A stretch of DNA of 24,782 bases from a virus. Position numbers and translations under genes: made by a program. The stretch is from positions 1 to 24,782 of IMG/VR virus record IMGVR_UViG_3300035430_000194, one strand, 5' to 3'. Under the pieces are notes generated by a model that saw only the letters and a list, made by a program, of their open reading frames with translations, was not told the origin of the DNA and did not search any database. The number at the start of each line of letters is the position of its first letter. Positions within the stretch are counted from its first letter, which is position 1. This document shows, in pieces, positions 5,026-22,754 of the stretch.

Positions 5026-6389
5026 TGGCATTAACGAAAGCGCATAACCGTATGATTGAAGGTGCGGCAGTTAACGTAAAGGACTTTGGTGCTGTTGGAG
5101 ATGGCGTAACGGATGATACTGCTGCAATACAGGCTGCTTTGGATAGTGGTGCTGGAATAGTAAAAATTCCTTCTGGCACTTATTTAACTGGTGCTTTATC
5201 AATAAGCAATGGGTTAAATCCAACAATTGCGGGAGATGGCCCAAAAAATACTGTATTAAAAGCAAGTGGAAATATATCAGCTTTACTTTCATTTGATTGT
5301 GAAAGCCATGCCTTATCAGCGTTTGGTGGTGGCGCTTTAGGTTTAAGTATCAACATGAATGGTTATACTGGAACAGCAATTAATATTGTTGGGTGGAAGG
5401 GTGCGCTATTCGATTCTTTAAACATAACGGTGACTAATGGGCAGGCGATTCGTATTACCCAAGCGGACACAACTGTATCGGATAACAGAGAGCCAATATT
5501 AAATCAATTCAAAAGAGTTAGTGCTTCTACCGCATCTGGCGTTTGTGTTTTATTACGTGCTAGAGATGTTTCAAATGGCGCTCCTCAAGTTGCAAATATT
5601 TCATTTGATACTTGTCAATTTAGTTCTGATGATGCAAGCGTGGTTAAATTTCAACTTGATTCAACATCTATCACAACCCCTGCAATTCAACGTATAACAT
5701 TTATATCATGCAATGCGTTTATAAAAGCCAATGATAAAACAGGGTATTACTTTGAATGCCTAGATTCTGATGGAGTTATAGGTAATATTTCTTTTAATGG
5801 CTGTCACGCTGAAGCATCGCCAACAACATCACCAACTGGAACATTCGGCCTTTATTTCTCAAACGTTACTGGCGGCACTATTTCTGCAATAAATTACAAC
5901 GGTGAGCTTGCTACTGCGACTCGATACGCAAAATCAACCAATGGAACATTTAACGCAATAACAGTAACAACAACGAAAGAAGCAAAAGCCTTTACGATGG
6001 TAGGCGAGGCTTTAATTGAAGAGCTTACTAATAATCCATCGTCTTTGATTATGCGAGCTGGTGATTCCATTGATCAAAATGTTGAGATTGATTTAAGAGA
6101 TAAAAGCGGTATCACAAAATGGACTGCTGGCAAAAGAGCAAATGGTAATTTTGAAATTAGAGATGGCTCTGGAAATATAAGAGTTCAAATTTTATCTACT
6201 GGATTAGTTTCTGTTTATGGTAATGCAGGAAATAAGTTAGCTGATTTTTATAACAGCGGGCTTGTGCAGATTACCAATGATTTTACTGTACAAGGTACGG
6301 CTGTAAAATTCACAAACCTTCCAACATCTAGCTCTGGATTACCTGCTGGGTCGGTATGGAATAACTCTGGTGTTTTGAACATTACCTAA
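5025..6389 (+). CDS. Second beta-helix tailspike (pectate-lyase-like), without T7-type anchor
   Basis: This 454-residue protein begins with only about 18 residues before the DFGAVGDGVTDD cap and beta-helix, so it lacks the T7 gp17-like anchor of the first spike. The middle is Asn/Ser/Thr/Gly-rich beta-solenoid. The C-terminal 130 residues change character and end in a TNLPTSSSGLPAGSVWNNSG hairpin of the sort found at the ends of many marine phage fibres, probably a trimer tip. Without its own anchor it probably docks on the first spike or the nozzle through its short N-terminus, as in branched two-spike systems. It shares the cap with the first spike but not the distal sequence. It may bind or degrade a second surface glycan; the substrate is not identifiable. 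Confidence 0.88.
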   Translation: MALTKAHNRMIEGAAVNVKDFGAVGDGVTDDTAAIQAALDSGAGIVKIPSGTYLTGALSISNGLNPTIAGDGPKNTVLKASGNISALLSFDCESHALSAFGGGALGLSINMNGYTGTAINIVGWKGALFDSLNITVTNGQAIRITQADTTVSDNREPILNQFKRVSASTASGVCVLLRARDVSNGAPQVANISFDTCQFSSDDASVVKFQLDSTSITTPAIQRITFISCNAFIKANDKTGYYFECLDSDGVIGNISFNGCHAEASPTTSPTGTFGLYFSNVTGGTISAINYNGELATATRYAKSTNGTFNAITVTTTKEAKAFTMVGEALIEELTNNPSSLIMRAGDSIDQNVEIDLRDKSGITKWTAGKRANGNFEIRDGSGNIRVQILSTGLVSVYGNAGNKLADFYNSGLVQITNDFTVQGTAVKFTNLPTSSSGLPAGSVWNNSGVLNIT

Positions 6390-20993: not shown

Positions 20994-21740
20994 ATGGAAC
21001 AGGCCGTAGAGAGTAACGATGTTACACAAAACGACACCCTGACCTCACTGGTGGACGCTGCTGAGCCACAGCTGGGAGAGGGTGAGTACTTTTTAACCGA
21101 AGGTATTAAGGGCACAGGGGACACTCCCGAGTGGTTTAAGGCTGACAAATACAAGTCAATTGCTGACCAGGCTAAAGCGTATACCGAATTAGAGAAGCGC
21201 TTTGGTGGGTTCAAGGGTGCGCCTAAAGATGGCTACCAAGCACCCGAAGGTATCGAAGCTGACGATGCGCTATTTGCTGAGCTAAAGACGTTTGCCGAAG
21301 AAACGAACATGTCTCAGGACGCATTTGATCGTGCATGGGAGATACTGCAAGCCCAGTCTGAAGCGGTCGAGGAAGTATCACTCGAAACTGAGATGGCCAA
21401 GCTAGGTGACAATGCCACTGGTCGCATCAAGCACGTTGAGCAGTTCATGAAGAACAACCTAGACCCTGATACCTATGAGCGCCTTCGTTATGCTGTTAAC
21501 AGTGCTGAGTCGGTCGAATTGGTCGAGGCCTTGATCAAGTCCACTGCGCCAGCCAAGCTACCTATTGACGGTGTTGTACAGCCAGGTGGTATTACTTGGC
21601 AGGATATTGAGGCTGAGATGTTTAAGAAGGATGACAATGGCAACTTCTTGCGCTCTGTTGATCGCAACCATGAATCCAAGATTCAGCGCATGATGAAAGA
21701 ATTTGGAGGGGATCGTCCTTATTCTAAAACCATTGGGTAG
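20994..21740 (+). CDS. Capsid scaffolding protein
   Basis: This 248-residue acidic helical protein starts at ATG 20994, directly before the capsid gene. The N-terminal half has EGEYFLTEGIKGTGDTPEWF, then KADKYKSIADQAKAYTELEK, RFGGFKGAPKDGYQAPEGI, a hallmark of podovirus scaffolds. A helical middle and a basic C-terminus (ESKIQRMMKEFGGDRPYSK) would bind the capsid protein. It guides procapsid assembly and is removed before or during packaging. A structured gap separates it from the capsid gene. Confidence 0.9.
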   Translation: MEQAVESNDVTQNDTLTSLVDAAEPQLGEGEYFLTEGIKGTGDTPEWFKADKYKSIADQAKAYTELEKRFGGFKGAPKDGYQAPEGIEADDALFAELKTFAEETNMSQDAFDRAWEILQAQSEAVEEVSLETEMAKLGDNATGRIKHVEQFMKNNLDPDTYERLRYAVNSAESVELVEALIKSTAPAKLPIDGVVQPGGITWQDIEAEMFKKDDNGNFLRSVDRNHESKIQRMMKEFGGDRPYSKTIG

Positions 21741-21741
21741 T

Positions 21742-21769
21742 TTGTTTTCTTATAGCTAAATGTTATTAT
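21742..21769 (+). promoter_or_regulatory. Possible promoter for the capsid transcript
   Basis: TTGTTT (21742-21747) and TATTAT (21764-21769) are separated by 16 bases, immediately after the scaffold stop. If active, transcription would start near the first hairpin of the capsid leader. The -35 is imperfect. Confidence 0.4.
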
Positions 21770-21771
21770 TG

Positions 21772-21887
21772 ATCTGTCGGATACCCATTCTTGGCCTGAC
21801 AGATTATTTAAGGTTGTAGGCTGACCGAATCTGTCGGGCACTCAGTCGAAAACTTCTTAAAAGCACTATTGGAATGGTTCCAAGTGC
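21772..21887 (+). promoter_or_regulatory. Structured leader of the capsid gene with alternative pairings
   Basis: ATCTGTCGG occurs at 21772-21780 and again at 21829-21837. Between them CTGACAGAT (21796-21804) can pair with either copy (nine pairs including one G-U), so the two hairpins exclude each other. A third hairpin follows at 21863-21887: TTGGAA/TTCCAA arms with a TGG loop, extended by GCAC/GTGC with a two-base bulge. The capsid ribosome site (GAGGA) follows at about 21909. It may be an RNA control element or a set of protein sites. Confidence 0.55.
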
Positions 21888-21920
21888 ATTGAGTTATTTT
21901 GACAATATGAGGAATTTATC

Positions 21921-22754
21921 ATGTCAACTAATTTATCTGCTGTAGCGGTAATTGAATTTGACAGTATGGTCAAACAAGCCTACCAAGGCATGGGCCAACT
22001 AAAGAATGCAGTAACCGTCCGTAACAATGTTGTAGGTGATACCTACAAATTTCGCCGCATGGGCAAAGGTCTTGCTAACCAGAAGGCTTCTTCTGCTGAT
22101 GTAACCCCAATGGATGTTGCGCACGAGTTCAAGGTAGCCACTTTGGCTAACTGGAATGCTCCTGAGTACACCGACATCTTTGACCAGGCTGAAGTTAACT
22201 TCGATGAAAAGCAAGAGCTTGCTAACGCAATTGCAGGTGCTTTGGGTCGTCGTACTGACCAGCTTGTCATTGATGCTATGGATGCCTCAACTCCGCTGAC
22301 TACTGCTATTGCCGCAGGTGGTACTAACCTGACGATGGCTAAAGTTATCGAAGCTCAGGTTGCACTTCGTGATCAAGGCGTGCCTAGCACTGAATTGTTT
22401 GCTGCTATTGATGCAAACGGTTTGGGTGGGTTGTTGAACGATGAGAAAGCAACTTCTGCTGACTATCAGGCTATCAAGGCTTTGGTCTCTGGCGAAATCA
22501 ACACTTTGTGCGGATTTAACTTCATTGTTATCGAAACTCGCGCCGAAGGTGGTTTGACTGTAGCAACTAACATCGTTGACTCTTGGTTCTTCCAGCGTCC
22601 CGCTGTTGGTCTTGCTATCGGTATCGACATGAAGACTGAAATTAACTACGTACCTGAGAAGACTTCTTGGCTCTCTAACGGTATGTTAAAGGCTGGCTCT
22701 GTCGTTCGCGACGAAGGTGGTCTGGTTAAAGTTCAGTACGATCGAACTGCTTAA
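21921..22754 (+). CDS. Major capsid protein
   Basis: This 277-residue protein starts at ATG 21921, seven bases after GAGGA. The pattern is that of the small HK97-fold capsid proteins of podoviruses: MVKQAYQGMGQLKNAVTVRN and DTYKFRRMGKGLANQKASSA early, DVAHEFKVATLANWNAPEYT DIFD-type strand (given here in two parts), ALGRRTDQLVIDAMD in the spine region, then an axial domain with FIVIETRAEGGL and DSWFFQRPAVGLAIGIDMKT. It forms the icosahedral shell. It has its own leader and is followed at once by a strong terminator, fitting high-level expression. Codon use here is highly biased toward GCT, GGT and AAC-type codons. Confidence 0.93.
   Translation: MSTNLSAVAVIEFDSMVKQAYQGMGQLKNAVTVRNNVVGDTYKFRRMGKGLANQKASSADVTPMDVAHEFKVATLANWNAPEYTDIFDQAEVNFDEKQELANAIAGALGRRTDQLVIDAMDASTPLTTAIAAGGTNLTMAKVIEAQVALRDQGVPSTELFAAIDANGLGGLLNDEKATSADYQAIKALVSGEINTLCGFNFIVIETRAEGGLTVATNIVDSWFFQRPAVGLAIGIDMKTEINYVPEKTSWLSNGMLKAGSVVRDEGGLVKVQYDRTA

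Follow-up and report, generated by a model that had tools for sequence, protein, structure and literature searches.

The proportion of capsid to scaffold in tailed phages is usually ascribed to the strength of the promoter and of the ribosome site. Amino-acid biosynthesis attenuators follow a 1:2/2:3 segment logic, and in translational riboswitches of the SAM-II type an alternative helix covers the Shine-Dalgarno (SD) site. The translational operator of gene 32 in phages T4 and RB69 is a pseudoknot of ~28 nt plus UUAAA repeats, and it is bound by gp32 (PMC535899). The window analyzed here is a stretch of 24,782 nt from a 24.8-kb IMG/VR virus record, in which the capsid gene of an aquatic phage appears to be preceded by a so far undescribed RNA switch that would control shell production.

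The capsid leader and its predicted promoter

The capsid leader of the window is flanked by an ORF that occupies the scaffold position (20994-21740), for which the PHROG search gave no match, and by the gene of the major capsid protein (21921-22754; phrog_3437 major head protein, E 2.2e-53); all features given here are on the plus strand. In annotated relatives, the gene preceding the capsid gene is named capsid assembly or scaffolding protein. The SD sequence GAGG was read at 21909-21912, 8 nt before the ATG at 21921. A search with the capsid protein gave 80 relatives, and two further outlying capsid queries were added. The leader set consisted of 68 distinct capsid-anchored sequences, 66 of them correctly anchored, and the element was present in all 66; the leader was ~145-182 nt long in nearly all relatives whose contig extends far enough upstream. 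Some of the pair counts given below rest on sequences chosen by a motif-favouring regular expression, and the presence test was repeated on the capsid-anchored leaders. Elsewhere in the window, a 68-bp repeat (2786-2853 and 5082-5149, 88% identical) was observed within two genes with pectate-lyase-like domains, which suggests a duplicated tail-spike module.

The element was found in many viral contigs (at least 116 pattern matches); among the matches listed, 115 lie ahead of a capsid start, and the remaining one is truncated where its contig ends. The R1 model gave one copy, at the capsid gene, in each of 18 related phage records (27-35 kb), with a single extra match, a weak one of 20 bits, in one of them. 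No convincing copy was obtained from 84,980 prokaryote genomes, where four pattern matches were chance-like, and a DNA search of isolate phages gave no match. When the Rfam 15 covariance models were applied at the gathering cut-off, no match was obtained for the window or for eight divergent relatives (best chance E 0.89), and SAM_alpha reached a chance-level score only, on the opposite strand (E 4.9). The sequence-only reading had known of no described element of this form upstream of a podovirus capsid gene, and this holds for Rfam and for the searched literature, most subscription papers lying outside it.

An extended -10 promoter element, TGTTATTAT (21761-21769; consensus TGnTATnAT), was kept in the capsid-anchored distinct leaders, with the variant TGGTATAAT in one relative, L103. 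A good -35 is missing from the window, and a simple promoter scan omitted the extended -10 element because of the poor -35; the L057-type leaders carry TTGACA upstream of the -10 element. From 5′ to 3′, the relatives show TGnTATnAT, six variable bases, a purine, UCRG and ~80 conserved bases. The purine at the +1 position was found in 66/66 distinct leaders, while the preceding six bases vary. This layout matches an extended -10 promoter with a transcript predicted to start at the purine, which in the window is G21776, 7 nt past the hexamer as inferred from the sequence. The upstream arm had been placed by the sequence-only reading at 21772-21780. Its GUCGG (21776-21780) is conserved as RUCRG, but with +1 at G21776 the preceding ATCT (21772-21775) would be promoter spacer and not RNA, barring read-through from upstream. 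Methylophilales phage MEP301 is without an RNA polymerase gene (PMC8024684), which fits host-type promoters; PF00940 (phage-type RNA polymerase) gave 0 matches in 18 related records, and the control likewise gave no match.

Two competing folds and the ribosome site

Segment 1 (GUCGG, 21776-21780) forms the 5′ arm of hairpin I and pairs with 21796-21800. Pairing comparisons identified segment 2 (CCUGACAGAU, 21795-21804; consensus CCYGAYAG) as a shared arm, which can be either the 3′ arm of hairpin I or the 5′ arm of a long hairpin, P1, its partners being the RUCRG of the RNA 5′ end or the downstream CURUCGGG. Segment 3 (AUCUGUCGGG, 21829-21838) is the 3′ arm of P1 in fold 2, and its UCGG (21834-21837) pairs with CCGA (21825-21828) in fold 1. 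The upper part of hairpin I (21785-21794) pairs CCA (21785-21787) with UGG (21792-21794) and showed compensated changes by inspection: the closing pair is A-U in the window, G-C in L020, U-A in L018 and C-G in L057, and the variants UCC/GGA and UCUC/GAGA were seen in L337 and L435, respectively.

The sequence-only reading had located ATCTGTCGG at 21772-21780, CTGACAGAT at 21796-21804, the identical copy of ATCTGTCGG at 21829-21837 and a further hairpin at 21863-21887, and these coordinates proved exact. Its main claim, that the central segment pairs with either partner in a mutually exclusive way, was borne out in 38 diverse cores aligned without structure, with 0 broken cells and with double-sided changes. 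Both of the computational checks that it had proposed were run: in the relatives both pairings were kept, each with double-sided changes, and the RNA of 21760-21910 folded better than its shuffles (z -3.1; 2/200 as good).

All eight pairs of P1 were unbroken in the 38 sequences, with double changes at 4 pairs. Segment 1:2 was paired in 59/59 cores, some of these pair counts coming from the motif-favouring selection, and its pairs vary in type (+1:Y6 as G-C, A-U or G-U; R4:Y3 as G-C, G-U or A-U). When the register was slid by one base, pairing fell to about 30-50% for P1 and segment 1:2, and the GGCUGA:UCAGUC helix described below likewise scored far above its slid registers. Furthermore, a tree-based null was constructed by dropping the observed changes per column at random on the tree in 2000 runs; P1 came out unbroken in 0/2000 runs, segment 1:2 in 1-21/2000 and GGCUGA:UCAGUC in 3-10/2000. 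The support for segment 1:2 is modest, the weakest of the tested helices, its 3′ arm being under constraint from P1 as well and the +1 base having to be a purine in any case. At the spacer, a separate observation was made in the window (21772-21776) and in L337, representing two lineages: segment 1:2 is lengthened by 4-6 pairs, as it is in 8/59 cores with ~1 expected, so that read-through transcripts would favour fold 1. A pattern search for compensated variants returned 1 true record among 22 matches, namely the already known L284 contig (IMGVR_UViG_3300017914_000909). This most divergent leader of the type described here (type A) carries P1 as CCCGATGAT/ATCATCGGG and the further arms GACTGG/CCAGTC and AGCTG/AAGCA, and has lost the SD arm. 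Two other pairings were tried and rejected, that of the 5′ end UCGG with the loop CCGA, which is broken in L077, L336 and L337-type variants, and a long-range GGAUACCC:GGGUAC pairing, which is broken in GGGCAC variants.

The sequence-only reading had overlooked a conserved hairpin (21811-21855) and the connection of this hairpin with the ribosome site. This hairpin II belongs to fold 1 and is built from AGGUU (21811-21815) with AACUU (21851-21855), GGCUGA (21819-21824) with UCAGUC (21842-21847) and the apical helix CCGA (21825-21828) with UCGG (21834-21837), with a GYAC bulge at 21838-21841 that is GCAC or GTAC in 59/59. The GGCUGA:UCAGUC helix was unbroken in the 38 diverse sequences, with double changes at two pairs; the compensated form is GACUGG:CCAGUC in L284, while L429/L435 show A-U. 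In a fixed five-base test, AGGUU:AACCU retained its full 5 bp in 58/58 relatives versus 15% in shuffles, a version that took the best helix in any register being uninformative. The CCR:YGG of hairpin II is compensated in L336 as CCAA:UUGG.

Fold 1 thus consists of hairpins I and II and fold 2 of P1, which excludes both hairpins since each of the two gives up an arm to it: hairpin I its 3′ arm, hairpin II the 3′ arm of its apical helix. On the core, fold 1 and fold 2 lay close together, with a computed mean difference of 2.0 kcal/mol over 26 sequences, and the core energies of the two folds in the window were -21.5 and -22.2. When the whole transcript was computed, fold 2 came out ahead by a mean of 6.5 kcal/mol, to which the SD helix contributes. 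Compared with shuffles, the fold energies were not exceptional (median p about 0.08). The AGGUU/GGCUGA pairing together with P1 would form a pseudoknot. An H-type pseudoknot as the sole fold is possible but not required; fold 1 accommodates these pairs in nested form, and two nested folds of similar energy account for all pairs.

The link to translation is predicted from the arm AACUUC (21851-21856; AACCUC in relatives), which is able to cover the SD site instead. Predicted AACCUC:SD pairing averaged 0.62, against 0.11 in the shuffled control, and was the higher of the two in 41/44 distinct leaders, a count to which the window does not belong and whose exceptions include L004 and L006, close to the window. 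In this subclade the arm is AACUUC and SD pairing is weak (G-U), and therefore the reading is less sure for the window alone than for the family. The SD-covering helices differ among subclades, being GCCUACAAAAC...GUUUUGAGGGU in L008 and CCUU...AAGG in L115. The place is occupied in the subclade of the window by a strong unrelated hairpin (21863-21887), a lineage-specific spacer between the switch and the ribosome site; it does precede the ribosome site as the sequence-only reading had it, but the ~148-nt leader class lacks it and the other leaders have something different there, so it is not a part of the design in most relatives. Comparison of the leaders established that an RNA with two mutually exclusive predicted folds, hairpin II included, is conserved directly after the promoter and that most relatives have an SD-complementary arm.

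Proposed mechanism and rival readings

The three-segment design had been called typical of attenuators and other RNA switches. The mutually exclusive 1:2 and 2:3 helices agree with this, but no intrinsic terminator-like site was found in 21500-22100, which makes a switch at the level of translation the better fit. The suggested role of the leader in capsid output is plausible, because one predicted fold covers the SD site in most relatives. A dedicated host-type promoter would start the capsid mRNA at G21776. Fold 1 would combine hairpin I, in which segments 1 and 2 pair, with hairpin II, the latter keeping AACYU locked away and so the ribosome site open. In fold 2, segments 2 and 3 pair as the long hairpin P1; P1, which may displace hairpin I during transcription, would dismantle hairpins I and II and free AACYU to cover the ribosome site; such SD pairing would repress translation. 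A phage protein, the capsid protein or an assembly partner, could bias the choice of fold and so exert feedback or timing control. The candidate trigger is probably a phage protein, which we prefer on two grounds: among the matches listed the element is confined to the capsid gene, and its type changes between clades. With moderate confidence, we read the leader as a 5′-terminal bistable RNA that would regulate translation of the capsid gene in a protein-biased manner and so serve feedback or timing. Points against this reading are the weak SD arm in the subclade of the window and its loss in L284, the modest support for segment 1:2, fold energies that do not stand out from shuffles, and the preference for fold 2 on the full transcript.

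Structure sets in directly at the predicted +1, which is the right spot to block 5′-dependent decay, and capsid mRNA must be abundant; a structured 5′ end could thus shield the message, its alternative folds being no switch. We consider this unlikely, since protection alone would call for neither conserved loops nor a second unbroken set of pairs on the same strand nor a conserved complement of the SD site. A riboswitch aptamer is usually, if not obligatorily, present before several genes of one pathway. Among the matches listed, the element is confined to the leaders of capsid genes in a single phage group, with none at a metabolic gene, and neither a convincing copy in prokaryote genomes nor an Rfam match was found; a metabolite-binding riboswitch with fold 1 as its aptamer is judged quite improbable on these grounds, in spite of the compact RNA, its highly conserved unpaired bases (AUA, GYAC), its two-state expression platform and the precedent of riboswitches in some marine phages (PMC9004378).

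The bistability could also be that of a ligand-free folding timer or start-site selector, which would act by co-transcriptional folding, temperature or the difference between read-through and promoter-initiated transcripts. In favour of it, the window RNA from 21776 is predicted to fold as P1 and, with four more 5′ bases, as two hairpins, and extra upstream pairing of at least 4 pairs was seen in 8/59 cores. The upstream extension is nevertheless missing in 50/59 cores, so start-site choice cannot be a general principle, and the chance of such a timer or selector appears slim. That the primary sequence is strongly conserved would also suit a DNA element, such as an operator, packaging or replication site. 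Against this, compensated changes keep the pairing, strong conservation begins at the predicted +1, and other clades bear different structured RNAs at the same place; we give a DNA site hardly any credence.

Other capsid leaders and known systems compared

Two other leader types were found at the same gene position, and by inspection both directly follow a -10-like box. Type M, a dissimilar structured RNA from relatives of MEP301 (MW452941.1, L082:2844-2998), was seen in L203-L282 (e.g. L244:1051-1200) with ~100 nt after the -10-like box; it has 24 pairs, 18 with double-sided changes, and no Rfam match, and its GGCNNACC/GGCCC motif is present twice. It resembles type A in gene position, in the -10-like box and in a 5′ hairpin of the GG-(C)AUA-CC/GG-C-CC kind. 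A weak likeness of AUACC/GGCCC to the core of the synthetic theophylline aptamer was dropped, the motif being too short to mean anything. Type S, the third structured capsid leader, was seen in relatives of Dunaliella virus SI2 (NC_023841.1, L083:883-1018), in L474-L524, as CAAGATGCAGACCC...GGCACCCGG...AAGGCCCTCGATC...AACCTTGAAGGAG; its CAAGG:CCTTG is exchanged for TTGG:CCAA in L506. Type S shares with type A the gene position and a CCUU arm complementary to CAAGG and to the SD site. The covariance models of the leader types gave no cross-match and their helices differ, so homology is not claimed. The regions upstream of the capsid gene in L526 (494-599), L531 and L532 possibly hold further structured leader types.

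It is conceivable, though we put it forward only tentatively, that aquatic podovirus-like phages carry a superfamily of 5′-terminal bistable leaders, with three or more dissimilar types, that sense the need for capsid synthesis and adjust it, possibly by reading free capsid or scaffold protein. If true, such a superfamily of sensor leaders would mean that head assembly in tailed DNA phages is under feedback at the level of translation. A conserved RNA with two states, placed where the capsid mRNA is predicted to start, points to active control of this step, and with no Rfam family and two other leader types in relatives it would introduce a new group of RNA regulators in widespread aquatic phages.

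Among the described systems, amino-acid attenuators likewise have a shared middle segment that pairs with either neighbour; unlike them, the capsid leader has no terminator found, and its control would act on translation. One described translational riboswitch is SAM-II (PMC1273637). Riboswitches of this kind are also compact 5′ UTR RNAs whose mutually exclusive helices expose or hide the ribosome site, but the present element has a phage capsid gene as its context and probably no metabolite ligand, and no Rfam riboswitch model matched at gathering score. Ribosomal-protein autogenous leaders (rpsO; PMC8470358) offer the parallel of a structured leader of a highly expressed structural protein with a possible feedback site; here the gene is another one, there is no Rfam match, and the protein site is putative. 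The T4/RB69 gene 32 operator (PMC535899) differs in that no bistable arms are described for it and its gene codes for a ssDNA-binding protein, not a capsid protein. Like the leader described here, it is a folded element of a phage mRNA leader 5′ of the ribosome site, and it lets a phage protein repress its own translation, with protein binding that is established there and predicted here.
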